Source of the DNA: Candidatus Acidiferrales bacterium
Lineage (GTDB): Bacteria > Acidobacteriota > Terriglobia > Acidiferrales > UBA7541
NCBI GenBank assembly: GCA_030037315.1
Contig: JASHRM010000223.1
Coordinates: forward strand, 1-44,910
Direction of reading: 5' to 3'
DNA: 44,910 nt
Below, piece by piece: positions 26,657-44,389 of this stretch (the first letter of the stretch is position 1; the number at the start of each line of letters is the position of its first letter). The notes beneath the pieces were generated by a model. The model saw only the letters and a list, made by a program, of their open reading frames with translations. It was not told the origin of the DNA and searched no databases. The translations under genes and the position numbers were made by a program.

Positions 26657-27646
26657 TTAGCGGAATTGATATCCGGGCTTCAGTTGACAGCGGTACATCT
26701 TCGATTGATCTTTCCCCACGCGGACGTTGCAATCGGCCCAACTTAGCAGCGGCGAAGGACCCAGCGGAAAAACGATGCCGACGCCGCCGAGCTCTGCCTC
26801 GAGGCTTGGCCCTTCCGCAGCGGCCGGAAGCGTGAAGTTCAGCGAGTCGCCAAAAATCACGGGATAAGATTCCCGCGTGATGTCGCTGACTTGATAGCGA
26901 TAGACTTCGGCTTGAAGCAGAAATGTTGTAGTGTCCGACCAATCGAGCACGGTCACCGAGGTCTTGCGCCCACCTTGAGAAAAATCGTCCGTTTGAATGC
27001 GCGTGAATGGACATGGCCCGGCGATGCAAGAAAGACGGGCATTGCGATAGACGTTGCCGTCACCGGCGTCCAGCGAGGCCGAGCCAAGAGCGGCTTTCCA
27101 TTTGCCGTCCGGCGAGCACGGAGGATGTCCATTGCAGGGGACATCACCCTTGTTTTCCACCTGAAACGTTTTTGTGCCGGTTCCGATGTTTTCCGATGTG
27201 CCCGTTTCAATGGCATACCGCACAAAAACGTTCGACACGGATGTGGTCGGACCGTTGCTGGGGGCATCGCTTTCCGGATGAGTGGGCGTCATGCGAATGA
27301 CCAGCAACTGGTCGCCGACCGGCACTTTCAAATTTACAGGCCCGTAGTCGGGACGCCTGAAGTGGAGCGCGACTATATCGCCACGCCGCACTCCGCGCCG
27401 CAGCGTCAATTTGAAGTATCCGGAGAAATCGGACTTGGTCTCCATCGGAGCCATCTCGCCGCCGCTGACGACAACGTCTGTGATAGGAGATTGCTTTCGA
27501 GTGTCCGAGTTTCCCCGGATCACAGCGCCGTGGATGGAAAGCGGCCTGCTTCGCTGGTGAGCGATAAGAATCACAGTTAGAACGGCCGCGACAATCACTG
27601 CTCCGATTCCAACCAGGATCCAGGTGGACGAACGGCCGTTGCTCAC
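26657..27646 (-). CDS. Membrane-anchored hypothetical protein with beta-sandwich (carboxypeptidase-regulatory-like) domain
   Basis: 329 residues. An N-terminal helix (TWILVGIGAVIVAAVLTVILIA) anchors it, with the rest presumably outside. Residues about 35-115 (LSIHGAVIRGNSDTRKQSPITDVVVSGGE...SDFSGYFKLTL...GDIVALHFRRPDYGPVNL) look like a carboxypeptidase-regulatory-like beta-sandwich, common in acidobacterial surface proteins. The rest is unrecognised and has several Cys (VPCNGHPPCSPDG, LSCIAGPCPFTR, ADCNVRV, YRCQLKPGYQFR) that may form disulfides. There are no catalytic motifs. It overlaps no neighbour and converges with the lactonase-like gene. Confidence 0.75.
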   Translation of the reverse strand: MSNGRSSTWILVGIGAVIVAAVLTVILIAHQRSRPLSIHGAVIRGNSDTRKQSPITDVVVSGGEMAPMETKSDFSGYFKLTLRRGVRRGDIVALHFRRPDYGPVNLKVPVGDQLLVIRMTPTHPESDAPSNGPTTSVSNVFVRYAIETGTSENIGTGTKTFQVENKGDVPCNGHPPCSPDGKWKAALGSASLDAGDGNVYRNARLSCIAGPCPFTRIQTDDFSQGGRKTSVTVLDWSDTTTFLLQAEVYRYQVSDITRESYPVIFGDSLNFTLPAAAEGPSLEAELGGVGIVFPLGPSPLLSWADCNVRVGKDQSKMYRCQLKPGYQFR

Positions 27647-27744
27647 GGATGCCTCTTGAAATTATGGTAGCAAAATGCGCTTCGCCGAATGCATCATTCG
27701 CATCGAATTGCGAGGCAACGCTACAACCGTGGCGAACGAATACT

Positions 27745-27750
27745 TATAAT
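27745..27750 (+). promoter_or_regulatory. Perfect -10 box (TATAAT) just upstream of the GH144-like start
   Basis: TATAAT lies seven bases before ATG 27758, so transcription would begin at or next to the start codon and yield a leaderless mRNA. The -35 candidate (TACAAC, 27722-27727, 17-bp spacer) is weak. No Shine-Dalgarno sequence precedes ATG 27758, which fits leaderless translation. This holds only if 27758 is the true start. Confidence 0.4.
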
Positions 27751-27757
27751 TATTACG

Positions 27758-29140
27758 ATGATCTTTTGCGGGGATAAGGCCCCAACAATCAGCCGCCGAA
27801 AATTCCTGCGGCAAACCGCAGCCGCCGGCGCGTACGCGTCCCTGGCGCCGCTCGCGCTGGCGGACACGCCACAGCTCATCACGTTAAGCCCTCCGCCGCC
27901 GCCGACAGAGCTCTACCAAGTTGACGAAGCGTTCCTGGAACAGGCGGAAAGCGCGAATTTCAAGTTTTTTTGGGAGCAGACAAATCCATACACCGGAATC
28001 GTTCGCGATCGCTGCAATGCCATTAACCCCGACAAGAGCGAGCTGGGCAGCATCGCATCGACTGGCTTCGGGCTGACGGCGCTTTGCATTGGAGAGAGCC
28101 GAGGTTACGTCCCCTATTACGAAGCGCGGAACCGCGTCCTGAACACTCTGCGTTTTCTGTGGAAAAAACTGCCGAATCATCGCGGATTTTTCTACCACTG
28201 GGCAAACATCGATACGGGCGAGCGCCTTTGGGATTCCGAAGTTTCGTCGGTTGATACGGCGATCTTGCTTTGTGGGGTGCTGACTTGCCGCGCCTACTTT
28301 CAGCATTCAGAAGTCTCCGAGCTTGCGGAGTTGATTTTCAATCGCGTCGATTGGACGTGGCTTTCCGAAGATACTCAGATCCTGCCGCACGGATGGCGGC
28401 CGGAAACAGGATTTCTGCAATATCGCTGGGACAATTACAGCGAGATGATGATGATGTATCTGCTGGGCCTGGGCTCATCCACATACCCGCTGGCCGCCAC
28501 CGCCTGGGACGCTTGGAAGCGCGTTCCATTCGAATACGACGAAATCCGGTACATTGGCTCCTTCGCGCCGCTCTTCGTTCATCAATACTCGCAGGCATGG
28601 TTCGATTTCCGCGACAAGCGTGATCGCTATGCGGACTATTTTCAGAATTCGATTCTTGCCACGGAAGCGCACAAGCGCTTCTGCCTGGATCTTTCGACAG
28701 AATTCCCGGATTACAGCGACAGCCTGTGGGGAATTACCGCGTCGGATTCGCCGCGCGGATACGTGATCTGGGGAGGCCCGCCCGCAACGGGGCCGATCGA
28801 CGGCACAGTGGTGCCCTGTGCCACCGGCGGATCGCTTCCCTTCATGCCGCAGGATACGATTCGCGTGCAGGAGACGATCAAGAACCATTATGGCGATAAG
28901 GCGTGGACGCGCTACGGATTTGTTGACGCCTTCAATCCGCTGACCAATTGGTATGACACCGATGTCGTGGGAATCGACACCGGGATCAGCATGCTGATGG
29001 CGGAAAACGCGCGTACGGGATTCGTTTGGAATACGTTCATGAAAAACCGCGAAGCCCAAAAAGGCATGGAGCGGGCGGGATTCAAACCATACAAACCGCC
29101 GCAACCGACGCAGGCCTCGAAGACAATTCCCGCTTCGTAG
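27758..29140 (+). CDS. Tat-exported glycoamylase-like protein (PF10091/GH144-like)
   Basis: 460 residues from ATG 27758, chosen so that the Tat signal (TISRRKFLRQTAAAGAYASLAPLALA, about 10-36) is N-terminal; the track's 27689 start adds 23 residues. The mature part has the glycoamylase-like signature: QAESANFKFFWEQTNPYTGIVRDR, IASTGFGLTALCIGESRGY, GFFYHWANIDTG, EVSSVDTAILLCGVL, HGWRPETGFLQYRWDNYSEMMMMYLLGLGS and SDSPRGYVIWGGPP. This alpha/alpha-toroid family includes GH144 endo-beta-1,2-glucanases and is related to the internal domain of cyclic beta-1,2-glucan synthases, one of which is encoded at 34748. The likely role is periplasmic cleavage of a beta-glucan, perhaps beta-1,2-glucan. It converges with the GH39-like gene (7-bp gap). 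Confidence 0.85.
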   Translation: MIFCGDKAPTISRRKFLRQTAAAGAYASLAPLALADTPQLITLSPPPPPTELYQVDEAFLEQAESANFKFFWEQTNPYTGIVRDRCNAINPDKSELGSIASTGFGLTALCIGESRGYVPYYEARNRVLNTLRFLWKKLPNHRGFFYHWANIDTGERLWDSEVSSVDTAILLCGVLTCRAYFQHSEVSELAELIFNRVDWTWLSEDTQILPHGWRPETGFLQYRWDNYSEMMMMYLLGLGSSTYPLAATAWDAWKRVPFEYDEIRYIGSFAPLFVHQYSQAWFDFRDKRDRYADYFQNSILATEAHKRFCLDLSTEFPDYSDSLWGITASDSPRGYVIWGGPPATGPIDGTVVPCATGGSLPFMPQDTIRVQETIKNHYGDKAWTRYGFVDAFNPLTNWYDTDVVGIDTGISMLMAENARTGFVWNTFMKNREAQKGMERAGFKPYKPPQPTQASKTIPAS

Positions 29141-29147
29141 CGTAGGA

Positions 29148-30734
29148 TTACCGCAACTCGATCAGGGCAAGTCCTTTTGGCGGCAGTTCGAGCTGCATGG
29201 AACCGTTTTTCAATGTCTCAATCTTCGCGGGCGGGAGTTCGGCGGCACGCCGGAGTTCTTCCACTTGCTTTGCCGTAGGATAAGCTGGGCTGCCTATCGC
29301 TTTGTAAGCATCCAGCAACGATCCGTGTGTTGCGTCAACGCGAGAAACGAGCGCGCGGGAGTTAGCGGTAAGGCCTTTAATCGTAATCGTTACCTCTTTG
29401 CTCGACCCGGTTTCTCCGGGAAGAGATTCGTTCCATACGGCAATCACCATCCAGCCGTCGGCACGGCGCGTCACAAGAACGGAATCCGACAACGCGTCAA
29501 TGCGCGTATTTCCCAGCTGATGCAGCAATTCGAATGCGCTGAACGACGGTTTCGGCAAATCGTCCGCGGCGATCAGGCCGAATCCGCCGTAAAAGGGCTT
29601 CTTGACAACGCCCTGCTCCTCGAAGACATCCGAGAAAGCCCAATAGGACATCATGTTCACGAGACCGTCGCACTGGCGAATCGTATCCGCAAGCCACGGC
29701 CCCATGAAAATCGAATCGGTCACGTCAGGCTCGTTTTTGTAGCTCGCGTTGAATTCGCTCCAAATCAAGGGAAGACCCGGCAGCGCCGATGCCTTCACCT
29801 GGTCGTGGACTTTTCTCACGGCCCTGCAGACGAATTGAGTGCGCGGAATCGGCTGGTCCGTGCCGAAGACCTTGTCGGGAGGATCATTCGCGTAGACATG
29901 AGTTGACGTGAAGTCGACGGGAATATGATTTTCGACGCAGTGCTTGATAAAGCGATCGACCCAGGCGGCTTGCGCGGTGGCAGGACCACCTACGCGCAAT
30001 CGCGGATTCACTCTTTTAAGGGCTAGAGCGGTAACATCGTAAAGCTTGTAGTACGTTTCCTCTTTCGGATCACCGGCCCAGAAATCGAGATTCGGCTCGT
30101 TCCAGACTTCGAAGTACCACTGCGAAACTTCGTCGATTCCGTAGCGATCGACTAGATGCTGGGCCAGATGAGTGATCATGTCGCCCCATTTGTTCCAATC
30201 CTTTGGCGGAGCGACGATCGGGTGATACCAAAACGCCTGCAAGGTTTGTTGGGCCGCTAATTTCTTCGGCATGAAACTTAATTCGACAAACGGCCGCACG
30301 CCGTTCTGAAGCAGACCGTCGTAGATCTGATCGATGTAGGAAAAGTTGTAGACGGGGTTGCCTTGCGCATCTTCGTCGTAGAGGCCGACTTCATCATCGA
30401 GAATTGCGTGGAAGCGGACGTATTGGAAATTCGTCGCCTTTTTTACTTCGCGCAAGTCGCGCCGATAGCTGTCGCGGAGACTCAGGATGGCGCGTCCCGA
30501 GCCAAACATCTGCTCCCAGTAATGCGGGAAGGGATGGCTGGGTGCGTCCGGATCGATCTGAATTATTTCCGGCGATGCTTGCGCTTGACTCTGGTTTTCG
30601 CGCGGGCCCCCGTCTGCTCCTATGACTCTTGCAGAAATTAGGCAAACGATCACGCAGAGAGACGCTGCAATCGCGCGGCGTGAGTTCGGCGTTCGCAGAA
30701 TAGCCACGATTTGTTTTTTACCAGAGCGGAACAT
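29148..30734 (-). CDS. Glycoside hydrolase family 39-like protein (beta-xylosidase type), exported or anchored
   Basis: 528 residues from ATG 30734. A hydrophobic N-terminal segment (AIAASLCVIVCLISARVIGA) serves as signal or anchor. The (beta/alpha)8 fold of clan GH-A is shown by YFEVWNEPNLDFW (acid/base Glu, about residue 212) and LPLIWSEFNASY (nucleophile Glu, about 328), together with THVYANDPPDKVFG. Family 39 contains beta-xylosidases, alpha-L-iduronidases and other exo-glycosidases; length and motifs fit but do not fix the substrate. It lies 56 bp after the ABC transporter gene on the same strand, so the pair is probably an operon, and it converges on the GH144-like gene. It could trim the oligosaccharides produced there. 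Confidence 0.87.
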   Translation of the reverse strand: MFRSGKKQIVAILRTPNSRRAIAASLCVIVCLISARVIGADGGPRENQSQAQASPEIIQIDPDAPSHPFPHYWEQMFGSGRAILSLRDSYRRDLREVKKATNFQYVRFHAILDDEVGLYDEDAQGNPVYNFSYIDQIYDGLLQNGVRPFVELSFMPKKLAAQQTLQAFWYHPIVAPPKDWNKWGDMITHLAQHLVDRYGIDEVSQWYFEVWNEPNLDFWAGDPKEETYYKLYDVTALALKRVNPRLRVGGPATAQAAWVDRFIKHCVENHIPVDFTSTHVYANDPPDKVFGTDQPIPRTQFVCRAVRKVHDQVKASALPGLPLIWSEFNASYKNEPDVTDSIFMGPWLADTIRQCDGLVNMMSYWAFSDVFEEQGVVKKPFYGGFGLIAADDLPKPSFSAFELLHQLGNTRIDALSDSVLVTRRADGWMVIAVWNESLPGETGSSKEVTITIKGLTANSRALVSRVDATHGSLLDAYKAIGSPAYPTAKQVEELRRAAELPPAKIETLKNGSMQLELPPKGLALIELR

Positions 30735-30790
30735 TCATTTCAAAGACGCGGCGCAAGGTTCAGGGCCATGCGCCGCCATTGGGATTGAGA

Positions 30791-32632
30791 TTAGCGATAA
30801 TTTGCCGCTTGCAGCTCGAACATTTCGGCGTAGAGGCCGCCGGTTTTGACGAGCTGCTCGTGCGGGCCTTGTTCGGCGATCGTCCCGTTTTTGAGGACCA
30901 GGACGCGGTCGGTCATTCGGACAGTTGAAAACCGATGCGAGATTAAAAGCGCCATCTTGCTCTTGGTCAACTCGGCGAAGCGCTTGAACACTTCGCTTTC
31001 CGCACGAGCGTCCAAAGCCGCGGTGGGCTCGTCGAGGATCAGCAATTGCGCATCGCGCAAATGAGCGCGAGCCAGAGCGATTTTCTGCCATTCGCCACCC
31101 GAAAGGTCCACGCCGCCTTCGAAACGGCAGCCGAGGAGCTGATCGTAGCCCTTGGGCAGTTTCTGGATCACGCTTTCCGCGAAGCTCTTCATCGCCGCGG
31201 CGCGAATTCTGAAGGGATTATTTGCTTCTTCGATCAAGCCAACGGCGATATTTTCGGATGCCGTCATCTCGTAGTGCATGAAATCCTGGAAGATGACGCC
31301 GATTTCCTTCCATAGACTGTCCAAGTCGTAATCACGCAGATCGACGCCGTCGAGCAGAATCTGACCTTCAGTGGGATCGTAGAGGCGAGTGAGCAATTTC
31401 ACAATGGTCGTCTTGCCCTGTCCGTTTTCACCGACCAGAGCGATCCGTTCTCCAGGCTCGAGTTTCAAATTGATGCCGTTCAGAATCTTTTTGCGGCTTC
31501 CAGGATACGCGAACGACACATTGCGGAACTCGATCCCGCTGCGGATCGGCTGCGGCGCGACCAAAGCTCCGGGCTTCGAGCGAATGCTTGGCTGCACCGC
31601 GAAAAATTCCACCAAGTCGGTTAAGAAGAGAGATTGGTCAGCGATACCCGAGAATGTCGTAAAGACTGCCTGGATATTTGTGGAAGCGCCCGCGATAGCA
31701 CCCGCGAGCAAGGTCAATTGGCCAATTGTCAAAACGCCAGCGACGGCCTGGTAAATCACATAAGCATACGCGCCATAGTAGCCAATCGTGCCCAAGAGCG
31801 TGAGCAATGCGCCGAAAAGCAAGCGCCTTTCCGCGAGTTGCAGATTTTGATAGTGCAGCCTGTCGGAAAGGTCTTTGTAGCGGCCCACAAGAAACGGACC
31901 GAGCCCAAACAGCTTCAATTCCTTGGCGCTTTCCCGGCTGCCGCCGAGGATCCGCAAATAATCCATGCGGCGCTTGGCCGGCGTCTGATTAAAACTCAGC
32001 GAGTAGCCAAGGAACGCGAAGTGCGTTTCGCCGAGGAACGCCGGAACCACGCAGACGATCAGAAAGAAGAGCAGCCAGGGCGAAAAGAATATGATCCCTG
32101 CCGCAAAGCTGACGGTCGTGAAAAATTCCTGAATGAGCCGGCCAGCCATCTGGATCAGCATCACGCGGTCGGTACCCTGCACGCGGGCGCGCTCCATCTT
32201 GTCGTAGAAGCGAGGATCCTCGTACCTGGTCAAATCCAGGCGCGAAGCGTGCTCCATGATCCTGGTGCTGACGTAGCGCGTAAACTTATCGGCCAGCACT
32301 GTGTCGCAGAAGGTGAGGAAGCGGCCCAGCATCGCCGCAACGCTGGCAAGAATGAACTCGAGTGCGACCAGCCACCAGAAGTCCTTCTGTAGCGCGGAGT
32401 GATACCAGATGTGCCGGTCGATCGCGTCGATAATGACGCGCGTGACCTCCAGGAGTCCTATGGGGATTACCGATGCAGCCAACCTTGCGACGACCCCGAA
32501 CGAGACGACGCTGGGGGCGCATTCCCAGACCATGCGGAAAACCGGGGGGACTTTGCGAAGCGCCTGCAAACGTTCGCGCCATTTTGGCGCCGGTATTTCG
32601 TGATTGCCTTCGTCCTGCTTTGCTTCGCTCAT
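30791..32632 (-). CDS. ABC exporter half-transporter (fused membrane and ATPase domains)
   Basis: 613 residues from ATG 32632; the track's ATG 32650 adds six and is equally possible. The N-terminal half has the membrane helices of a type IV exporter (SFGVVARLAASVIPIGLLEV, FFSPWLLFFLIVCVVPAFLG, GALLTLLGTIGYYGAYAYVIY). The C-terminal ATPase domain has Walker A GENGQGKTT (about 401-410), signature LSGGEWQKIALARAHL (about 510), Walker B LLILDEPTAALDA and the H-loop LISHRFSTV. It would export a peptide, lipid or glycan as a homodimer. The length is close to the beta-1,2-glucan exporter NdvA/ChvA, and the synthase lies 2 kb away, but sequence features alone do not favour that over other exporters. 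It is probably co-transcribed with the GH39-like gene. Confidence 0.9.
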   Translation of the reverse strand: MSEAKQDEGNHEIPAPKWRERLQALRKVPPVFRMVWECAPSVVSFGVVARLAASVIPIGLLEVTRVIIDAIDRHIWYHSALQKDFWWLVALEFILASVAAMLGRFLTFCDTVLADKFTRYVSTRIMEHASRLDLTRYEDPRFYDKMERARVQGTDRVMLIQMAGRLIQEFFTTVSFAAGIIFFSPWLLFFLIVCVVPAFLGETHFAFLGYSLSFNQTPAKRRMDYLRILGGSRESAKELKLFGLGPFLVGRYKDLSDRLHYQNLQLAERRLLFGALLTLLGTIGYYGAYAYVIYQAVAGVLTIGQLTLLAGAIAGASTNIQAVFTTFSGIADQSLFLTDLVEFFAVQPSIRSKPGALVAPQPIRSGIEFRNVSFAYPGSRKKILNGINLKLEPGERIALVGENGQGKTTIVKLLTRLYDPTEGQILLDGVDLRDYDLDSLWKEIGVIFQDFMHYEMTASENIAVGLIEEANNPFRIRAAAMKSFAESVIQKLPKGYDQLLGCRFEGGVDLSGGEWQKIALARAHLRDAQLLILDEPTAALDARAESEVFKRFAELTKSKMALLISHRFSTVRMTDRVLVLKNGTIAEQGPHEQLVKTGGLYAEMFELQAANYR

Positions 32633-32831
32633 TGGGCTGGTCAACCTCATCTGCCGTTCATTCCATCAACGGACTCGATCATGCACGTCTCATGCCAGCG
32701 CTAAGTCAATAAGAATCATAGACATGCGCAAACGATAAGGGCCAGCGCCTTTGCTTTTTTTCGGCAAGCGAGCAATATCTACTAAGTCTGGTGTTGGGGG
32801 GCTTCCTGTCAGGCGGTTGTCTACACGTGAC

Positions 32832-33330: not shown

Positions 33331-33909
33331 ATGGCAAAAGAAACCGGCGCGCTGAAAGAACTCTATATGGACGAGTTGAGGGACCTTTACAACGCAGAGC
33401 AGCAGCTAATCAAGGCCTTACCCAAAATGGCCAAAGCTGCCGACTCTGATGATTTGCGGAGTGGCTTTGAGGAACATCTGGAACAGACCAAGGGCCATGC
33501 AAAACGCATCGAACAGATTTTTCAGGCTTTGGGCGAATCCCCAAAGGGCAAGAAGTGCGCGGGAATCGAAGGTATCATCGAGGAAGGCGGCGAAGTGATG
33601 GACGAAGGCTATGAAGGAGCTGTGATGGACGCAGCGCTGATCACGGCCGCGCAACGCGTAGAGCATTATGAGATCGCGGCTTACGGCTCCGTGCATGCGT
33701 TCGCAACCCTCATGGGCGAGAGCGAAGCGGCCGATTTACTCGAACAGACGCTGAATGAAGAAAAAGAAACCGACCAGAAACTCACGCAGCTTTCAGAACA
33801 CATCAACGCACAAGCCTACGAAGGCGGTTCCGAGTCAGGCGACGAAGAGGAAGAAGAGGAACGGCCGCGTCCCAAGACGAAAGCGGCACGGGCCGGAAAT
33901 TCCCGCTGA
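33331..33909 (+). CDS. DUF892 ferritin-like protein (YciF/YciE family)
   Basis: 192 residues from ATG 33331, with GGAGAG upstream. The four-helix ferritin-like domain (LKELYMDELRDLYNAEQQLIKALPKMAKAA, FEEHLEQTKGHAKRIEQIFQALG, MDAALITAAQRVEHYEIAAYGSVHAFATLMG, DLLEQTLNEEKETDQKLTQLSEHIN) carries the Glu and His residues expected for a metal site (AEQQ, EHYE). Family members are induced by osmotic or general stress. The C-terminus adds an acidic run (DEEEEEERPRPK) followed by a basic tail (KTKAARAGNSR), a charged extension beyond the usual domain. Its function is not established; iron binding is inferred from family. Confidence 0.9.
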   Translation: MAKETGALKELYMDELRDLYNAEQQLIKALPKMAKAADSDDLRSGFEEHLEQTKGHAKRIEQIFQALGESPKGKKCAGIEGIIEEGGEVMDEGYEGAVMDAALITAAQRVEHYEIAAYGSVHAFATLMGESEAADLLEQTLNEEKETDQKLTQLSEHINAQAYEGGSESGDEEEEEERPRPKTKAARAGNSR

Positions 33910-34010
33910 TTTTTGTGCGCGGCAGGCGTGGTCGGATCTCCGCCACGCTCGCCGCGCGATTTCCACAGCCGTACAGCAAATCCCTGATGGGCGTAATCAG
34001 TTCTTTGTAT

Positions 34011-34024
34011 TGTTGTATACAACA
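34011..34024. promoter_or_regulatory. Perfect 14-bp palindrome, candidate operator
   Basis: TGTTGTATACAACA is fully self-complementary and lies 43 bp before the pseudo-receiver start, overlapping a possible -35 region. It is followed within five bases by a second palindrome. No known regulator binding site is claimed. Confidence 0.45.
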
Positions 34025-34028
34025 GCCG

Positions 34029-34045
34029 CCGTTCATAATGAACGG
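34029..34045. promoter_or_regulatory. 17-bp palindrome, candidate operator over a -10-like box
   Basis: CCGTTCAT-A-ATGAACGG has perfect 8-bp arms around one base. CATAAT inside it resembles a -10 box, so a protein bound here would block the promoter of the gene at 34067. It is 4 bp from the 14-bp palindrome but not the same sequence. Confidence 0.45.
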
Positions 34046-34066
34046 GTTACAAAAAGGTAGGCAGAG

Positions 34067-34582
34067 ATGGTCACTTCGACGTTTGCGGTGCGGCAAACCC
34101 TACAAATCGGCGCGGAAAGCGATTCGAATCAGCCTACGGTGGTGATTGCGACGACCGATACGGAAATCCAGGCCACGATGTCGAAGCTGCTTGAACACTA
34201 TTCGCTGCGAACGGTGTACGCAAAATCGCTGGAAGAAGTAAAGTCAATCGTCTCATCACGAAAAGTGGCCGCGTGCTTTTGCAGCTTTTGGTTGATCGAC
34301 GGTACATATCGAGACGTCATCAAGCATTTGCGCAAGCAGCCCTCGGAGATTCCGGCCATTATCGTATGCTCGCCGGAATGCCCTCAAGAATACCGGGATT
34401 ATTTGGCTGCCCTCAACATGCGAGCTTTTGGTTTCATGTGCCACCCTTACCGGCGCGCGGACTTTGAGCAAATTCTAGAATCCGCAATCGGTCTTCAGAA
34501 TCAGGTGCCTGAACGCACCGTGCACAGGATGCCGAGCGCGAGCGGCAGTCTTGCACCCGCCGAACTTCCGAAAGCAAGTTAG
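34067..34582 (+). CDS. Pseudo-receiver (response-regulator-like) domain protein
   Basis: 171 residues, no DNA-binding domain. A receiver-like alternating strand/helix pattern starts at about residue 24 (TVVIATTDTEIQATMSKLLEHY), continues with KVAACFCSFWLIDG, where the phospho-acceptor Asp is replaced by Ser73, then EIPAIIVCSPEC and AFGFMCHPYRRADFEQIL, where the conserved Lys before Pro is His. The key Asp and Lys are thus both missing, so phosphorylation-dependent switching is unlikely. A disordered tail ends the protein. The gene has two palindromes in its promoter region and lies 165 bp before the glucan synthase on the same strand. It might regulate by protein-protein contact, or be a decayed regulator; the function is unknown. 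Confidence 0.75.
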   Translation: MVTSTFAVRQTLQIGAESDSNQPTVVIATTDTEIQATMSKLLEHYSLRTVYAKSLEEVKSIVSSRKVAACFCSFWLIDGTYRDVIKHLRKQPSEIPAIIVCSPECPQEYRDYLAALNMRAFGFMCHPYRRADFEQILESAIGLQNQVPERTVHRMPSASGSLAPAELPKAS

Positions 34583-34747: not shown

Positions 34748-37700
34748 ATGGGAGTGCATGGATTCGGAACTATGACCTCGGCGCCTCCGGTAAACATATT
34801 CACAGAAGTTGAAGAACCGATCGTAGGTGAGCTGTTTAGCGTTGAACGCCTCGAACAGCACGCCGAAAGTCTCGCCGCTGCCCAAATCGTAAGGAACGAC
34901 TGGCTCGGCAGCCGGCCTCTGATTCCCCGAGTCGCACAAAATGGACGGCTGCTCCTCGAGTATTACCGCACCAACGCGCGGGCAATTCAGGAAGAACAGG
35001 CCATCACGCCGGCGGCACAATGGCTCGTCGACAATTTCTACATCGTCGAGGAACAGCTTCGCGAAATCCACGACGACCTGCCTGCCGCTTATTACCGCAA
35101 ACTGCCGAAGCTGGCGGCCGGACATTTGGAAGGCTATCCCCGCGTTTACGGCGTTGCGTGGGCATTCGTCGCGCACACCGACAGCCGTTTTGAGCCGGAA
35201 GTCCTGCGGCGCTTTGTAAATGCGTATCAGCGCGTGCAGCCGCTATCGATCGGCGAACTCTGGGCGCTTGCGATTACTCTGCGCGTCGTCTTGGTCGAAA
35301 ATCTGCGCCGCGTCGCGGGTCGCCTTGTCGCCAGCCGCGAAGCGCGCGTGCAAGCCGACCTAACTGCCGACAAGCTCCTGGGCACTGGCGGAAAGCAAGC
35401 AGTGTCCGCTTCGGCGATTCTGCGGCGTTTTGAGAATCAGCCGCTCGATCGCGCATTCGCTGTGCAGCTCGTGCAACGGCTGCGCGATCTGGATCCAAAA
35501 GTCGGCCCGATCCTGGTTTGGCTCGACGAGCGGCTGGCGGCACAAGGCACGAACGTCGAAGAAATCGTTCGCCTCGAACATCAGCAGCAAGCAGCCATGA
35601 GCGTGACGGTGCGCAACATCATCACGAGCATGCGCTTCACCTCCACATTCGATTGGCACGCGTTCTTCGAAAGCGTCAGCATCGTCGACCAAATTTTGCG
35701 CGATGGCAGCGACTTCGGTGACATGGATTTCAGCACTCGTGATTCCTACCGCCACGCGATCGAGGATCTTTCGGCGGGCTGTGGACGATCCGAAATCGAA
35801 ATCGCGGAGCTTTCGGTAGCGAAGGCGCAGAATGCCGCGCTTCAGGCTCACACGAACAAACACACGCACGATATGCGCAAGACCGATCCCGGCTATTACT
35901 TGATCTCGCATGGTCGTCGGCCGTTTGAACGCGAAATCCGGTTCCGGGTTTCGTTTAGAAGATGGCTTCTGCGCCTGTACATTCGCATGGCGGTGCCGGG
36001 TTATCTAGGCACGATCGCTTTGCTCACGGCGATTATTCTCGCGTGGCCGCTGGTTCGCTCGTGGGAATCGGGTGCAACACGGCCTGAATTGACCCTTCTC
36101 GCAATACTTGCGCTAATTCCGGCTTCGGATCTGGCGATCGCGTTGATCAACCGCGGCATCACGGACTTGCTCGGGCCGCGGACTCTCCCTCGGCTCGAAC
36201 TCAAAGGCGGAATTCCCACGGAATTGCGAACGATAGTCGTAATTCCCACGCTGCTAACGTCTCCGAAGGAAGTTACAACGCTCGTTGAGCGGCTCGAAAT
36301 TCATTATCTGGCGAATCCGGATGGTGACCTGCGCTTTGCGCTGCTTTCGGATTGGGTCGACGCCTCGAGCGAGCATTTGCCTAACGACGCCGAACTGCTC
36401 GAAACGGCTACGCAGGGCATCGCGAATCTGAATGAGCGATACGGGCCGGCTCCAGGCGGCGGAGATCGATTCTATCTTTTCCATCGCAGGCGCCTGTGGA
36501 ACGAATCCGAAGGCAAGTGGATGGGTTGGGAGCGCAAGCGCGGCAAGCTGCACGAGCTTAATCTTCTGCTGCGAGGCTCGAAAGACACCTCTTTCATCAC
36601 GACCAGCGGTAAGCCGCCGCAACCAGTTTCCAGCGTCCGGTATGTAATTACGCTTGACTCGGATACGCGCCTTCCGCTCGGAGCGGCAGCGAAGCTGGTC
36701 GGCACGATGGCGCATGTGCTGAACCAGCCTGTCTTCAGTCCCGAGGAAGAACGAATCACGGATGGATATGGAATTGTTCAGCCGCGCGTCACTCCTTTTT
36801 TGCCTGCCGAAGGCGAAGGATCGATCTTTCAGCGCGTCTTTGCAGGACCCAGCGGGATCGATCCCTACGCGGCCGCTGTTTCGGATGTTTACCAGGATTT
36901 GTTCCGAGAAGGCTCCTTCACTGGAAAAGGCATTTACGACATCGACGCCTTCGAATCCGCGCTGGACGACAAAGTCCGCGACAACACGCTGTTGAGCCAC
37001 GATCTGCTGGAAGGCATTTTCGCGCGCGCTGCACTGGTGACGGATATCGAGCTGTTCGACGACTTCCCGTCTAACTTTGAGGCTTCCGCGGCGCGGCAGC
37101 ATCGTTGGACGCGCGGCGATTGGCAGTTGTTGCCGTGGATCGTCGGGTCGGAGGCGCGAAAATCCAAAATTCCGATCATCGGGCGCTGGAAAATGCTCGA
37201 CAACCTGCGCCGCTCGCTCTCTGCCCCGGCGATGTTCTTCACGATCACCGCGGGATGGCTCGCGCCGGGCCTGTCTCCGTGGCTATGGGCGCGATTCATT
37301 CTTGTTGTAATCGCCATTCCGGCTTTTATTCCGTTTCTGGTCGGCATCAATTCGCGGATTTCGGGAACTTCAAAGCGCAGCCAGTTCCACGGAGCCGTTT
37401 CGGATTTCACACTGGGATTATCGCAGTGGGCGCTCGTGGTTGTGTTCCTCGCTTATCAATCGTGGTTAATGATTGACGCTATTTTGCGCACCCTCCATCG
37501 CATGTATTCGTCTCACAAAAATTTGCTGGAATGGGTGACGGCAGCTCAGGCGAACCGCCGCGCGAATTTGAAACTGCCGGCGGCGTTCAGGCGCATGTCC
37601 GGCGGCTTGATATTTGCGCTGGCGGTGCTGGCCGTGGTGTTGATCGCGGAGCGTCACGCGCTACACGCTGCCCTGCCATTTGTAATCGCGTGGCTTGTGG

Positions 37701-40700
37701 CGCCCGCTGTGGCGTATTGGATCAGCCTTCCTTCGATTGACGAGGAAGAAGAGGTTTTGTCGGAATCTCAGCGCCGCGCCTTGCATTCCGCTTCGCGCAG
37801 AACGTGGAAATTTTTCGAGACATTCGTGACGCCCTCCGAAAACTTTCTGCCTCCCGATAACTTTCAAGAGGACCCCAGGCCGGTTGTGGCGCATCGCACG
37901 TCCCCAACGAACATTGGCCTTTATTTGCTTTCCACGCTCTCGGCTTGCGATATGGGATGGATCGGCGCATCCGATGCTGCAGACCGGATGGAAGCGACCC
38001 TCGATACGATGAACCGCCTCGAGCATTTCCGCGGCCACTTTCTGAATTGGTACGATACGCAAAGCCTCCAGCCACTCGAGCCGAAATATGTTTCCACTGT
38101 AGACAGCGGAAACATCGCCGGGCATCTACTGGCCCTCGCTACGGGCTGCCAGGAATTGATTGAGCGCGATTTCGTCGGCCCGAGCGCCACTAGCGGCGTG
38201 GAAGACACTGTATATCTCCTGAGCGACGCACTGGCAAATATTCGCGACACGCGCCGCATTCAAACCGTGACCCGGAAGCAGCTCAGCAACGCGGTCGATG
38301 CGCTTGCGGCTTCCCTGCGATCGGTCGGCACTGGATCCGTGTCATTCGCCGGAAAGCTTTTGGACATATCCTCGCGCGCGCACGCCGTCGCCGATATCGC
38401 TCAGACGCTTAGCCAGGAACAGGGCGCCACTGCGAGCGCCGATTTGTCTTACTGGGCCGCAGCAGCGAAAGAGTCGGCGGAAAGCCAGCTTCGCGATGCA
38501 CAGATTTTTTTCCCCTGGTTGCGGCTGGATTCTGCCGGTGTCAAGCTCGTTGCGGAATGGCATGCCGGTCAAACTGCGGGATGGGCGGCGATCGAGCGGT
38601 TTCTGTCCAGGAAGCTCACCTTGGAAGATGGCGAGCGGTACGAAGTTGTCGCCAACGAATTGAAAGCGCTCAAGCCTTCCGGAACTTCGTCGTCTTCATC
38701 GCAGCGCGCCGGTATTGACGAGTTGATCGACGCTTTCGAACGATCGGCCGCGGAAGCAAAGAATCTTCGGGAGCGGCTATCCGCTTTGGCAGAACGTTCG
38801 CGCCAAATGTTTGAAGGAACGGATTTCACCTTTCTCCTGGACCCCACGCGCAAACTTTTTGCCATCGGCTATCGAGCGACGGAAGGGCAGCTCGATCCAA
38901 ATTGTTACGACCTGCTCGCATCTGAAGCGAGGCTCGCCAGTTTCGTCGCTATCGCCAAGGGCGATGTTCCTTCGTCGCACTGGTTTCATCTCTCGCGCCC
39001 GCTAACCCCGGTGGGACAAGGAACCGCGCTCATCTCCTGGTCGGGGTCGATGTTCGAGTATCTGATGCCGGCGCTGGTGATGCACTCGCCAGTTAAAAGC
39101 ATGCTCTGGCAGACGTACGAGCAAGTTGTCGCGCGGCAAATTGAATACGGCGCCGAACGCGACGTGCCCTGGGGCATTTCCGAGTGCGCTTATGCAGCTC
39201 GCGATATAAATCTCACGTATCAGTATTCGAGTTTCGGCGTGCCCGGCCTGGGACTCAAGCGCGGACTCAGCGAGGATCTCGTGATTGCGCCGTACGCGTG
39301 CGTGCTCGCATCCATGGTGCAACCTGGATCTGCGGTGGAAAACTTCGGAAGACTGCGCGATGCCGGCGCACTTGGCCGTTACGGCTTTTATGAATCGCTC
39401 GATTACACCAGTTCGCGCCTGCAGGAAGGAGACAAGCTGGAGGTCGTTCGCGCATACATGGCGCACCACCAAGGAATGTCGATTGTGGCAATTGCAAACA
39501 TCCTCGGTGATGGGGCAATGCGCAACCGATTCCACGCGGCTCCCATCGTGCAAGCTACGGAACTTCTGTTGCAGGAGCGCACGCCGCGCGGAGTGCTCGT
39601 CGCTCGCCCGCGCGCCGAGGAAGTTTCTGCCGCCGCGCTGGTGCGCGACCTTGTGCCGCCGGTCGTGCGAACGTTCAAGACGCCTCACGATTCGACACCG
39701 CGAACAGAACTTCTCTCGAACGGTCGCTACGCGGTGATGGTCACGGCTGCCGGTTCCGGCTACAGCCGCTGGCGCGATATCGCCATCACTCGTTGGCGCG
39801 AAGATGCCACGCGGGACTGTTGGGGCTCCTACATTTTTCTGCGCGACGAACAGACGGGCAATGTTTGGTCTGCCGCCTATCAGCCGAGCGGCGCTGTGCC
39901 GGATAGTTACGAGGCTGTCTTCTATGAGGATCACGCCGACTTCTCCCGTCGCGATCGTCCCCTAACAACTTCGATGGAAATCGTCGTGTCCTCCGAAGAC
40001 GACGCGGAAATGCGCCGCGTATCGATAACGAACACCGGCCTTCGCGCGCGCACGATTCAAGTCACGTCTTATGCAGAGCTTGCACTAACCGCGCAAGCTG
40101 CCGACGCCGCCCATCCCGCCTTTTCGAATCTTTTCGTTGAGACGGAATTCAACCACGAAGTAGGCGCCCTGCTGGCTACTCGGCGAAAGCGTTCAGACGA
40201 TGAGCCGAACGTGTGGGCGGCTCATGTTTTGGTCGTCGAAGGCACATCAGAAGGCGAGGTTCAATACGAAACCGACCGGGCGCGTTTCGTTGGCCGTGCG
40301 CGCACAGTCGAATGCCCGATCTCGGTGATCGACGGCCGCCCGCTCTCGAATACTGTTGGTCCCGTTCTCGATCCGATTTTCAGCTTGCGGCGCACCATTA
40401 CGATCGCTCCGGGGACCACGGCTCGTCTGGTTTTTTCAACAATCGCCGCTTCCACTCGGGAAGACGCAATCAATCTGGCTGATAAGTATCGCGACGCCCG
40501 CACTTTCGAGCGCACCCTCACGCTCGCCTGGACGCAGGCTCAAGTGCAAATGCGCCATCTAGGGATCAGCGCTGAGGAAGCGCACCTTTTCCAAAGGCTC
40601 GGCAACGCCGTGATTTACTCGGATCGGAGTATGCGTCCAAGCAACGATTTCCTGCGCAGCACCACTCTGGACCGCTCGGCTCTGTGGTCGCAAGGAATCT

Positions 40701-43540
40701 CGGGCGACCTGCCGATCGTTCTGGCTCGCATCGACGACACGAGCGACGTGGATATGATCCGGCAATTGCTCCGCGCGCATGAATACTGGCGGACCAAACG
40801 TTTGTCGGCGGATGTCGTAATCGTCAACGAAAAACCTGCTTCCTACATTCAAGACTTACAGGGTTCCCTTGAAAATCTGGTGCGTGGCAGTCAGTTGCGC
40901 CTCTCTCCCGATACAAATGAATCGAGCGGCAAGATTTTCCTTCTGCGAGGAGATCTGGTGGCGCCGCACGTGATTGCTCAGTTGCAGGCCGCCGCGAGAA
41001 TCGTTCTGCTAAGCCGCCGCGGCACGCTTGCAGAACAAATTTTGCGGACCCAAGCCGAAGAGCCGGCGCCGATGCTGCGAGGTCCTCGCGTTCGCAGTTC
41101 CAGGCGCCAGGATGTTCCGCTTCCCCAGCAACCCTTGCAAAATTTCAACGGCTTAGGTGGATTTACTGATGACGGCCGCGAATATGCGATCGTCTTGAGC
41201 GAAGGCCTGCGCACGCCGGAGCCGTGGGTCAACGTAATCGCGAATCCCGATTTCGGATTTCTCGTGTCCGAATCTGGCGCGGGTTTCACGTGGTCGATCA
41301 ACAGCCACGAAAATCAGCTCACTCCCTGGTCCAATGACCACATTCTTGATCCGCCCGGCGAAGCCATCTACCTGCGCGACGAAACCAGCGGCGAGGTGTG
41401 GACGCCGACCGCCCTCCCGATTCGGGACGAAGACGCGACATACGTCACGAAACACGGACAGGGTTACACGCGATTTCTTCATGGGTCGCATGGAATTCTC
41501 GTAGATCTTCTGCAATTCGTGCCGGTAAAAGATTCGGTTAAAATTTCGAAGCTGATTCTGCAAAACGACTCCGGCCGCAATCGCCGGATTTCCGTGACAG
41601 CTTACGCTGAATGGGTGCTGGGCACGTTTCGCTCGTTCACTGCTCCGTATATCGTCACGGAATCGGACCATCAAACAGGCGCAATCTTTGCGCGAAGCAT
41701 GTGGACGGGAGAATTTGGCGGACGCGTCGCATTCGCCGATCTGGGCGGCCGGCAAACCACGTTCACTGCCGACCGTTGCGAGTTTCTTGGGCGCAATGGC
41801 AGCGCCGAGCGACCCATGGGCTTGGAGCCCGGCGTCACGCTTTCGGGCAAAACGGGAGCCGCGCTCGATCCCTGCGCGGCACTGCAAACCCTCGTAGAGC
41901 TTCGCGCGGGCGCCCGCGTGGAATTGCGATTTGTCCTTGGCGAAGCGGAAAACGTGGCTGCGGCGCGCGATCTGGTCAATCGCTACCGATCGGCGAATCT
42001 CGAAGAAAACTTCGCTGAAGTGACGCAGCAATGGGACGACATCTTGAGCGCCGTCCAAGTTACCACGCCCGATTCCTCGATGGATCTAATACTCAATCGC
42101 TGGCTTTTGTACCAGACGCTGTCATGCCGCGTGTGGGCGCGCGCTGCGTTCTATCAACTGAGCGGCGCCTACGGTTTCCGCGATCAGTTGCAGGACGTGA
42201 TGGCGCTCACAGTCGCCAAACGCAGCGTCGCGCGCGAGCATCTGCTTCGTGCAGCGGGACGGCAATTCATCGAAGGGGACGTGCAACATTGGTGGCATCC
42301 GCCATCCGGCCGCGGAATTCGCACGCGGATGTCAGATGATTTGCTGTGGCTCCCGTGGGCCGTTGTGCATTTCATCGAGGCCACGGGAGACACCTCGGTC
42401 CTCGAGGAAACAATCCCATTCCTTCATGGTGATTTGCTCGCCGAGGGGCAGAAGGAATCTTATTTCGAGCCGCTCGTGACGGACCAACGAGCCACTCTTT
42501 TCGAGCATTGCGCTCGGGCGCTCGATCGAAGCCTCGCAGTTGGCGCTCACGGTTTGCCCCTGATGGGCACCGGCGATTGGAACGACGGCATGAATCGGGT
42601 CGGCCAGGATGGCCGCGGCGAAAGCATCTGGCTCGGCTGGTTTCTGCATACGATTTTGTGGGAATTTGCCAAGGTTGCCGAAATGCGAGGCGAACATAAA
42701 CGTGCCGAAGCGTGGCGCCTGCACGTCATCGCGTTGAAGGCGGCGCTCGAGCGCGAAGGCTGGGACGGTGAATGGTATCGCCGCGCATATTTCGACGATG
42801 GCACGCCGCTGGGCAGCGCTACAAATTCGGAATGCCGCATCGACGCGATCGCGCAGTCGTGGGCGGTGATCAGCGGCGGCTCAGAACCTGCCCGTAGCGC
42901 TCGCGCGATGGCCGCCGTCGAACAGCAACTGATTCGGCGCTCCGAGCGCCTCGTGTTGCTGCTGACTCCGCCCTTCAACCATCCAGATCACGATCCCGGC
43001 TATATCAAAGGCTACTTACCAGGCATCCGCGAGAACGGCGGACAATACACGCACGCAGCCACTTGGACTCTGATCGCATATGCGGCGCTGGGAGACGGCG
43101 ACCGTGCTGGCGACCTATTCCGCATGTTGAATCCGGTTAACAAGTCCAGTTCGCGCGCAAGCGCGCAGCGCTATAAGGTCGAGCCCTACGTCGTCGCGGG
43201 CGATGTCTATGCCGAAGAACCTCATGTTGGCCGCGGCGGCTGGACGTGGTACAGCGGCTCGGCGGGCTGGCTCTATCGGGCGGGAATGGAATGGATTTTA
43301 GGCTTCCGTTTGCGCGGCATGAACCTCAGCATCGATCCGTGCATCCCGCGCAATTGGCCCAGTTACTCGATGAAATTCCGCTATCACTCTGCGGTCTACA
43401 ATATTCGCGTTGAGAACCCGAGCGGCGTGACGCGCGGCGTGGCATTAACCGAAGTCGATGGAAAGGTGCTCGCCGGCGCTGCGAATATTCCGCTTGCCGA
43501 CGACGGCGCGACCCACACGATCAGGGTTGTTCTGGGGTAG
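34748..43540 (+). CDS. ndvB: Cyclic beta-1,2-glucan synthase (NdvB/ChvB-type, GT84 + glycoamylase + GH94-like)
   Basis: 2930 residues, the scale of rhizobial NdvB/ChvB (about 2800). Order: N-terminal domain; membrane helices at about 411-436 and 446-468; a GT84 glycosyltransferase with TLDSDTRLPLG (about 636-646) and QHRWTRGDWQLLPW (about 783-796); helices at about 828-868, 893-913 and 951-994; a glycoamylase-like domain (about 1001-1625; RTSPTNIGLYLLSTLSACDMG, VPWGISECAYAARD); then a GH94-like half with two beta-sandwich blocks (about 1640-1900 and 2135-2380) and the catalytic domain (GTGDWNDGMNRVG, about 2608-2620; GRGGWTWYSGSAGWLYRAGMEW). In the known system UDP-glucose is polymerised to beta-1,2-glucan, and the other domains control length and cyclise it. 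The start is ATG 34748; ATG 34772 is possible. No NdvA-like gene adjoins directly, but an ABC exporter lies upstream. Catalytic competence is inferred from retained motifs. Confidence 0.95.
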   Translation: MGVHGFGTMTSAPPVNIFTEVEEPIVGELFSVERLEQHAESLAAAQIVRNDWLGSRPLIPRVAQNGRLLLEYYRTNARAIQEEQAITPAAQWLVDNFYIVEEQLREIHDDLPAAYYRKLPKLAAGHLEGYPRVYGVAWAFVAHTDSRFEPEVLRRFVNAYQRVQPLSIGELWALAITLRVVLVENLRRVAGRLVASREARVQADLTADKLLGTGGKQAVSASAILRRFENQPLDRAFAVQLVQRLRDLDPKVGPILVWLDERLAAQGTNVEEIVRLEHQQQAAMSVTVRNIITSMRFTSTFDWHAFFESVSIVDQILRDGSDFGDMDFSTRDSYRHAIEDLSAGCGRSEIEIAELSVAKAQNAALQAHTNKHTHDMRKTDPGYYLISHGRRPFEREIRFRVSFRRWLLRLYIRMAVPGYLGTIALLTAIILAWPLVRSWESGATRPELTLLAILALIPASDLAIALINRGITDLLGPRTLPRLELKGGIPTELRTIVVIPTLLTSPKEVTTLVERLEIHYLANPDGDLRFALLSDWVDASSEHLPNDAELLETATQGIANLNERYGPAPGGGDRFYLFHRRRLWNESEGKWMGWERKRGKLHELNLLLRGSKDTSFITTSGKPPQPVSSVRYVITLDSDTRLPLGAAAKLVGTMAHVLNQPVFSPEEERITDGYGIVQPRVTPFLPAEGEGSIFQRVFAGPSGIDPYAAAVSDVYQDLFREGSFTGKGIYDIDAFESALDDKVRDNTLLSHDLLEGIFARAALVTDIELFDDFPSNFEASAARQHRWTRGDWQLLPWIVGSEARKSKIPIIGRWKMLDNLRRSLSAPAMFFTITAGWLAPGLSPWLWARFILVVIAIPAFIPFLVGINSRISGTSKRSQFHGAVSDFTLGLSQWALVVVFLAYQSWLMIDAILRTLHRMYSSHKNLLEWVTAAQANRRANLKLPAAFRRMSGGLIFALAVLAVVLIAERHALHAALPFVIAWLVAPAVAYWISLPSIDEEEEVLSESQRRALHSASRRTWKFFETFVTPSENFLPPDNFQEDPRPVVAHRTSPTNIGLYLLSTLSACDMGWIGASDAADRMEATLDTMNRLEHFRGHFLNWYDTQSLQPLEPKYVSTVDSGNIAGHLLALATGCQELIERDFVGPSATSGVEDTVYLLSDALANIRDTRRIQTVTRKQLSNAVDALAASLRSVGTGSVSFAGKLLDISSRAHAVADIAQTLSQEQGATASADLSYWAAAAKESAESQLRDAQIFFPWLRLDSAGVKLVAEWHAGQTAGWAAIERFLSRKLTLEDGERYEVVANELKALKPSGTSSSSSQRAGIDELIDAFERSAAEAKNLRERLSALAERSRQMFEGTDFTFLLDPTRKLFAIGYRATEGQLDPNCYDLLASEARLASFVAIAKGDVPSSHWFHLSRPLTPVGQGTALISWSGSMFEYLMPALVMHSPVKSMLWQTYEQVVARQIEYGAERDVPWGISECAYAARDINLTYQYSSFGVPGLGLKRGLSEDLVIAPYACVLASMVQPGSAVENFGRLRDAGALGRYGFYESLDYTSSRLQEGDKLEVVRAYMAHHQGMSIVAIANILGDGAMRNRFHAAPIVQATELLLQERTPRGVLVARPRAEEVSAAALVRDLVPPVVRTFKTPHDSTPRTELLSNGRYAVMVTAAGSGYSRWRDIAITRWREDATRDCWGSYIFLRDEQTGNVWSAAYQPSGAVPDSYEAVFYEDHADFSRRDRPLTTSMEIVVSSEDDAEMRRVSITNTGLRARTIQVTSYAELALTAQAADAAHPAFSNLFVETEFNHEVGALLATRRKRSDDEPNVWAAHVLVVEGTSEGEVQYETDRARFVGRARTVECPISVIDGRPLSNTVGPVLDPIFSLRRTITIAPGTTARLVFSTIAASTREDAINLADKYRDARTFERTLTLAWTQAQVQMRHLGISAEEAHLFQRLGNAVIYSDRSMRPSNDFLRSTTLDRSALWSQGISGDLPIVLARIDDTSDVDMIRQLLRAHEYWRTKRLSADVVIVNEKPASYIQDLQGSLENLVRGSQLRLSPDTNESSGKIFLLRGDLVAPHVIAQLQAAARIVLLSRRGTLAEQILRTQAEEPAPMLRGPRVRSSRRQDVPLPQQPLQNFNGLGGFTDDGREYAIVLSEGLRTPEPWVNVIANPDFGFLVSESGAGFTWSINSHENQLTPWSNDHILDPPGEAIYLRDETSGEVWTPTALPIRDEDATYVTKHGQGYTRFLHGSHGILVDLLQFVPVKDSVKISKLILQNDSGRNRRISVTAYAEWVLGTFRSFTAPYIVTESDHQTGAIFARSMWTGEFGGRVAFADLGGRQTTFTADRCEFLGRNGSAERPMGLEPGVTLSGKTGAALDPCAALQTLVELRAGARVELRFVLGEAENVAAARDLVNRYRSANLEENFAEVTQQWDDILSAVQVTTPDSSMDLILNRWLLYQTLSCRVWARAAFYQLSGAYGFRDQLQDVMALTVAKRSVAREHLLRAAGRQFIEGDVQHWWHPPSGRGIRTRMSDDLLWLPWAVVHFIEATGDTSVLEETIPFLHGDLLAEGQKESYFEPLVTDQRATLFEHCARALDRSLAVGAHGLPLMGTGDWNDGMNRVGQDGRGESIWLGWFLHTILWEFAKVAEMRGEHKRAEAWRLHVIALKAALEREGWDGEWYRRAYFDDGTPLGSATNSECRIDAIAQSWAVISGGSEPARSARAMAAVEQQLIRRSERLVLLLTPPFNHPDHDPGYIKGYLPGIRENGGQYTHAATWTLIAYAALGDGDRAGDLFRMLNPVNKSSSRASAQRYKVEPYVVAGDVYAEEPHVGRGGWTWYSGSAGWLYRAGMEWILGFRLRGMNLSIDPCIPRNWPSYSMKFRYHSAVYNIRVENPSGVTRGVALTEVDGKVLAGAANIPLADDGATHTIRVVLG

Positions 43541-43593: not shown

Positions 43594-44241
43594 TTAGGCT
43601 TCGATGATTCTGTTGCGGATTGCGTAGCGAACGAGTTCGCTTACCGTGTGCAGTTCGAGCTTACGCATGATGTTCGCGCGATGCGTCTCCACCGTCTTCA
43701 CGCTGATGTTGAGCAGCACGGCCACTTCCTTGTTGCTCTTGCCCTCAGCGAGAAGCTGGATGATTTCGTTTTCGCGTGACGTGATGCGCGACGCCGTCTT
43801 GTTACGAACGGGAGAATCCGCGCGCGCCGGCACTGCGATGGCTTCCGAGACGCGCTCCGAGTAAAAGGTCTTGTGGGTCGCGAGGTTTTCAAGCGCGGTC
43901 GATAGGTCGCGGCCCGAATCCGACTTCACGACGTATCCGCGAATTCCCGCGTTCATCACATCGCGAACGATCTGGTCGGAGTAGTGCATGGAAAGCATCA
44001 GAATTTCGGTTTTCTCGGAGGCTTTGCGAATTCGCTTCGCGGCCTCGATCCCGTTCAGCTCGGGCATGGAAATGTCGAGAATCGCCACATCGGGCTTCAG
44101 CTCTTGAGCCTTCGCCACCGCTTGGGAACCTGTGTGTGCTTCGCCACAAATTTCCCAGCCCTTGCGCGATTCGATGATTGTCTTGATTCCCCGGCGCATC
44201 AGGTCGTGATCGTCAGCCACAAGTATGCGTAGTGAACCCAC
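43594..44241 (-). CDS. NarL/FixJ-type response regulator (LuxR HTH)
   Basis: 215 residues from GTG 44241, preceded by GGAGG with a 5-base spacer; the track's 44274 start adds 11 residues upstream of this site. The receiver domain has the acidic pair (VADDHDLM), phospho-acceptor Asp56 (DVAILDISMPELNG), Thr/Ser (MLSMHYS) and Lys (GYVVKSD). The C-terminus is a LuxR-type helix-turn-helix (ITSRENEIIQLLAEGKSNKEVAVLLNISVKTVETHRANIMRKL). It is a complete phosphorylatable transcription regulator. No sensor kinase is in the window, so it is an orphan here. It converges with the glucan synthase gene (53-bp gap), which by position may be one target, though that is inference. Confidence 0.95.
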   Translation of the reverse strand: MGSLRILVADDHDLMRRGIKTIIESRKGWEICGEAHTGSQAVAKAQELKPDVAILDISMPELNGIEAAKRIRKASEKTEILMLSMHYSDQIVRDVMNAGIRGYVVKSDSGRDLSTALENLATHKTFYSERVSEAIAVPARADSPVRNKTASRITSRENEIIQLLAEGKSNKEVAVLLNISVKTVETHRANIMRKLELHTVSELVRYAIRNRIIEA

Positions 44242-44310
44242 ATGACCCTCCTTGACTTGCGACAGAAGCCTCACATAGGCCTAAACCGCAGGACATACAT
44301 AGTTCGATGG

Positions 44311-44326
44311 AATTCCCTAGGGTATT
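44311..44326. promoter_or_regulatory. Near-palindrome around CCCTAGGG upstream of the response regulator
   Basis: AAT-T-CCCTAGGG-T-ATT is symmetric except for one base pair and lies about 70 bp before GTG 44241. LuxR-type regulators bind such dyads, so self-regulation is possible. No second copy was noticed elsewhere in the window. Confidence 0.3.
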
Positions 44327-44389
44327 TCATGTATCCATACGCGCCTGAAAATAATAGGCTTGGCGCGGTTCGGGGCGAGAATGCCCATC

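Follow-up and report, generated by a model that had tools for sequence, protein, structure and literature searches.

In circuits of the GacA/UvrY-RsmZ/CsrB kind, a dyad that lies upstream of a small-RNA promoter connects the RNA with a NarL-family response regulator. One example of GacA-controlled small RNAs is described in PMC2375449. Bacterial pseudo-receivers have been reviewed as working through partners, ligands or redox cysteines, and their mode of action is an open question (PMC12632262). Here we describe a locus of a Candidatus Acidiferrales bacterium, contained in a window of 44,910 nucleotides (the whole stretch of DNA analysed, contig JASHRM010000223.1). As judged from comparison with related genomes, the main finding is a conserved promoter with paired sites and its association with a pseudo-receiver, a glucan synthase and a new RNA.

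A pseudo-receiver gene and its neighbourhood

The gene at 34067-34582 on the + strand encodes a stand-alone pseudo-receiver of 171 aa, with an ATG start and AAAAAGGTAGG upstream. Its match to Pfam Response_reg (E 3.7e-4) is below the cut-off, and NCBIfam gave no family above cut-off for either this protein or the synthase that follows it. AlphaFold predicts a confident receiver fold for residues ∼21 to 140, with pLDDT above 90 in the core and disordered ends, and the best PDB matches of the predicted fold are the REC domains of XynC and KdpE, with TM scores (target) of 0.81 to 0.85. A preliminary description, made from the sequence alone, had read this receiver as lacking the phospho-Asp (Ser73) and the conserved Lys (His), and the receiver alignment confirms both S73 and H126. 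Together, the active-site changes are DD to T29/T30, D to S73 and K to H126, and the protein combines a receiver fold with the loss of active-site residues and does not carry the Asp and Lys of a canonical receiver.

Orthologues are found at 54 to 64% identity in six genomes of the same genus and, more distantly, in other genera of the family, in records named as Acidobacteria MAGs, of which several come from Stordalen palsa, or as Ca. Acidiferrales bacteria. Across the alignment of 12 proteins, the phospho-Asp position is Gly in the 11 relatives and Ser in the window, the Thr/Ser position (S102 in the window) varies among the relatives, C70 and C72 (C-x-C) are invariant and C105 and C125 are present in 11/12. 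The LxDG and EYL.A...GAFD motifs extend to remoter acidobacterial relatives, whose phospho-Asp site holds E, D, S or A, so loss of the phosphorylation site is common in this larger set of relatives. The window protein lacks the usual aspartate and cannot be phosphorylated there. Its action is probably through contact with another protein, which would tune either its partner regulator or the glucan synthase encoded next to it, and its cysteines are perhaps sensitive to redox state or metals.

As had been noted from the sequence, the gene precedes a glucan synthase on the same strand, and this open reading frame (34748-43540, +) starts after 165 bp. The 2930-aa product carries GH94 and Glycoamylase domains with long Cgs homology and matches PDB entries 8rf9 and 8rf0 with E reported as 0, resembling the known cyclic beta-1,2-glucan synthases of NdvB/Cgs type in size, in domains and by a very high sequence score. 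It is a clear Cgs/NdvB homologue, with cyclic beta-1,2-glucan as the predicted product. Unlike the known Cgs/NdvB enzymes, it sits behind a pseudo-receiver, in Ca. Acidiferrales. In every same-genus orthologue the synthase comes after the receiver, and it is the usual neighbour among the 11 relatives overall.

Adjoining the synthase cluster is an ABC transporter gene (30791-32650, −), a possible glucan exporter that reached no exporter-specific cut-off; an 80% identical gene lies by the synthase in genome G009 and a 67% identical one in G110. The nearby ABC transporter, GH39 and glycoamylase genes stay together in G110, and with another gene they form a block conserved with the glucan synthase (window 26657-32650; L112:12576-18614). 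In one other genus, genes that we take by eye to be treZ/treY-like, and presumably for trehalose synthesis, lie beside the receiver or the RNA (L212, L044 and L114). The trehalose-like neighbours and the gene block suggest an osmotic or envelope-stress theme.

Palindromes and paired sites at the receiver promoter

Two perfect palindromes 4 bp apart had drawn attention to this promoter, and both are exact. Palindrome 1 (TGTTGTATACAACA, 34011-34024) overlaps the −35 and the spacer, and palindrome 2 (CCGTTCATAATGAACGG, 34029-34045), with 8-bp arms and a 1-nt loop, is centred on the −10; the −10-like CATAAT that it was said to cover is at 34034-34039, the conserved −10 position in the orthologues. 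The window contains 10 perfect palindromes with arms of at least 7 and loops of at most 1 (11.2 expected) and one with arms of at least 8 (3.0 expected). Simulation of 3453 random 45-kb windows gave a pair within 10 bp in 106 (3%), and a pair within 4 bp with one arm of at least 8 in 0.8%. The close pair is weak evidence because it was picked after reading, at ∼3% per window.

Both palindromes are private to the host genome. Even with 1 mismatch allowed, palindrome 1 is found just once in the 3.68-Mb assembly, palindrome 2 recurs there only as chance-like 2-mismatch copies, and neither stands before any of the 11 receiver orthologues. The orthologue promoters and genome searches thus rule out the conservation that the preliminary description had proposed looking for, and its suggestion of two regulators, or of one operator plus an RNA hairpin, is not supported, as the palindromes are singly at chance level and lie on the −35/spacer and the −10. 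That they are true operators gained in the host lineage, with a GntR-family protein acting at palindrome 1 and a −10-occluding repressor at palindrome 2, is in our view quite unlikely. Both are perfect and cover the very elements a repressor would block, the pair is somewhat unusual (3%) and TTGTATACAA resembles GntR/FadR-type operators, which we count for this reading; against it stand the chance-level recurrence of palindrome 2, the lack of either palindrome in every orthologue and the single occurrence of palindrome 1, which would be unusual, though possible, for a regulon. An RNA hairpin formed by palindrome 2 in the leader is highly improbable. The 8-bp arms are perfect, but fewer than 8 pairs can form because of the 1-nt loop, the palindrome is not conserved and its position led to the rejection of this reading: it holds the −10 and ends just before the predicted start (∼34046), so the transcript would lack such a hairpin. 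The palindromes are lineage-specific and probably incidental.

The regulatory signal that comparison of the orthologues reveals lies immediately upstream of the palindromes, and the right promoter had been found for the wrong reason. Conservation among orthologues upholds both the placement of the promoter, with CATAAT as the −10, and the inactive receiver, and it does not support what had been deduced from the palindromes. The promoter is kept in 11/11 orthologues as two inverted ∼17-bp sites (TACAGnnAAtTCnnTAG) followed by a weak −35 and a −10 at fixed spacing; upstream of the gene, all 11 have cTACAGnAnnTnCC...nTAACGAATTGACTGTATTG and then the hexamer NAnnAT 20 bp later. In the window, site 1 (TACAGCAAATCCCTGAT, 33972-33988, +), the top R1 match, corresponds to the TACAG-N-A..-CC kept in 11/11 orthologue promoters. 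Site 2 (TACAAAGAACTGATTAC on the − strand, 33993-34009) is an inverted copy of site 1 that is partly degenerate in the window, where 8/17 positions are identical to site 1. The candidate −35, TTGTTG (34010-34015, +), is weak compared to the consensus and is identified by the GTATTG block and the fixed 20-bp distance to the −10 in the relatives. In the −10 (+ strand), A2, A5 and T6 are the sole invariant columns 3' of GTAT in the 11 relatives, and this is unchanged with the window added. The window aligns to the orthologue promoters with one extra spacer base (18 bp versus 17 in the relatives), placing a weak TTGnnn −35 directly after site 2 and CATAAT on the orthologues' NAnnAT hexamer. A conserved TTGACT inside site 2 was considered as the −35 and rejected, since no consistent −10 follows at 16 to 18 bp and the TTGnnn right after site 2 fits instead. 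The standard sigma-70 consensus scan does not pick up the window promoter.

The inverted arrangement is supported by nine promoters in which site 1 and reverse-complemented site 2 share a mean of 9.7/17 positions at one offset only, compared to 6.4/17 for the next best over all other offsets and orientations. An element model trained on the 11 relatives, with the window left out, finds the window copy as its best match in 45 kb (E 0.0011), and a matrix from which the orthologues G097 and G095 had been left out still matched both. Several copies away from receivers score weakly (E 0.036 in the host genome, G000, and 0.028 in G010), and the regulon was sampled through model searches only. Element-like sequences also stand before short hydrophobic proteins at L170:8045-8104 and L168:7646-7714; by eye, we take these proteins to resemble DUF1328 and DUF3309.

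Candidate regulators and a linked structured RNA

In 8 of 12 loci (G019, G004, G015, G012, G021, G097, G095 and G110), the gene immediately upstream of the element encodes a NarL/FixJ-type response regulator, RR-A, which makes this regulator the likely activator. In the window and in G007, a DUF892 gene takes the place of RR-A upstream of the promoter; in the window this ferritin-like gene (33331-33909, +) matches Pfam with E 5.6e-58 and has a 71% identical counterpart in L043. The RR-A of the host genome is on contig 191 (G000:C191) with an element copy just behind it, and in both G000 and G007 the receiver and synthase lie elsewhere, yet an element copy is found ∼30 bp behind RR-A. RR-A and the receiver co-occur within the genus (p 0.004, without phylogenetic correction). 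G009 has the receiver, at a contig end, and the element, with no RR-A match above the threshold used. Element copies also occur near other regulators of the RR-A subfamily, in G013 and more weakly in G002.

A possible second regulator, RR-B (43594-44274, −), is a NarL/FixJ-type paralogue of RR-A with Pfam Response_reg and GerE domains; in G000 and G007 alike, its gene sits at the distal end of the synthase. RR-A is 67% identical to RR-B over the RR-A length, and both have a receiver and a GerE helix-turn-helix. RR-B was discarded as the orthologue of the receiver-adjacent regulator, the true orthologue being RR-A at G000:C191. A possible single site upstream of RR-B (TACATGAAATACCCTAG, 44317-44333, −) is weak, with the second-best matrix score in the window (15.1), and suggests RR-B autoregulation, the site being not clearly conserved before RR-B orthologues. 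As site 2 of the window is degenerate, control there may be weakened or shifted to RR-B.

Recognition of the element by a factor other than RR-A appears unlikely. Such a factor could be an ECF sigma factor encoded beside RR-A, and an ECF sigma gene is indeed near RR-A in G019, G004, G015, G012, G095, G000 and G007, but the inverted-repeat form suits a dimeric activator and not a sigma factor, a sigma-70-type −10 stands at fixed spacing 3' of the element, and the element directly abuts the response regulator genes.

Without the receiver, the element also precedes a covarying hairpin RNA of ∼70 nt. This RNA lies behind element copies in G000:C191, G007, G009, G013, G010 and G097:C214; in G021, G095 and G097:C300 it is placed between the element and the receiver gene. 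The host-genome copy (L107:10506-10572, equivalent to G000:C191:14005-14071) is behind the RR-A gene, on a different contig from the window, and the window itself has no copy of the RNA, no structured RNA and no Rfam match. Among seven sequences, 13/22 pairs of the hairpin show double changes, and among 19 distinct sequences 17/22 do. Compensatory cells in the latter number 58 compared to 20 in shuffles, with 0/500 shuffles as high; the 19-sequence alignment was fitted to the structure, and sliding controls drop to less than half. The RNA consists of one long hairpin that includes a conserved GAGGGCUGGG strand, and a GGA-loop array was not seen. No Rfam family matches it at gathering score, and none matches the G000 copy at E ≤1, and by these comparisons it is a new family, unlisted in Rfam.

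The RNA was found in 75 of 89 genomes of the family, with one or two copies in most (including L175-L204), and in just 2/297 genomes of a phylum sample that included the host genome and was searched at lower sensitivity. Thus, an RNA present in most genomes of one family of soil bacteria is missing from Rfam. Six of nine family-wide element matches (E ≤0.05, outside the training set) precede the RNA. The element model and the RNA model were each built and run independently, although the first examples of the RNA came from beside element matches of a smaller search, and the coincidence of their matches supports reading the element as a promoter region. All 22 other RNA copies examined (L182-L204) have the sigma-54 pattern TGG[CTA]-N8-TGC 29 to 32 bp before them, a pattern seen in 0/7 element-driven copies. 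A tRNA gene lies within a few hundred bases of several sigma-54-type copies. A literature search on small RNAs and sigma-54 in Acidobacteria found nothing relevant.

A combined model and its relation to known systems

Comparison establishes the element, its spacing, the fold (as predicted), the residue loss, the gene association and the RNA, and the most likely reading of them is a regulon under a response regulator that comprises the pseudo-receiver, the glucan synthase and the RNA. The receiver gene would be transcribed from a sigma-70-type promoter (−35 34010-34015, −10 34034-34039) with its start near 34046. The promoter is probably activator-controlled: RR-A and/or RR-B would bind the two inverted sites, centred at about −44 and −65 and so two helical turns apart, with the proximal site abutting the −35, and the same regulator would also turn on copies of the unlisted RNA. 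The identity of the activator, activation and not repression, co-transcription, and the way in which the protein acts are what we infer. To the model as a whole, in which RR-A and/or RR-B activates the promoter driving the pseudo-receiver, the RNA is also switched on and the palindromes are incidental, we give a probability of roughly 65%. The conserved promoter would thereby link the pseudo-receiver with its likely regulator, with an enzyme for envelope glucan and with an RNA, in a defined module to test.

A broader reading, which we put forward tentatively and at somewhat less than even odds, is a Gac/Rsm-like stress circuit in Ca. Acidiferrales, in which a NarL-type regulator acts through the paired-site element to control a pseudo-receiver that bears cysteines, the synthesis of cyclic glucan and a new family of RNAs. 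If this is true, two signalling routes would converge on one RNA, since the other RNA copies appear to run from sigma-54. As in GacA/UvrY-RsmZ/CsrB, a NarL-type regulator is linked, here by co-location, to an RNA behind a dyad-bearing promoter. The site sequence differs, and the RNA is a single long hairpin in which the usual GGA-loop array was not seen.

The window protein shares with the bacterial pseudo-receivers and aspartate-less receivers (PMC12632262) a receiver fold without the active-site residues. It differs from them in being a single domain in which an invariant C-x-C-[GS] marks the place of the lost phosphorylation site, encoded behind a conserved promoter and with a glucan synthase as its usual neighbour. 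The redox-sensing atypical regulators RitR and HP1021 (PMC12632262) are likewise pseudo-receiver proteins and are regulated through cysteine, but they carry DNA-binding domains, whereas the window protein has none.
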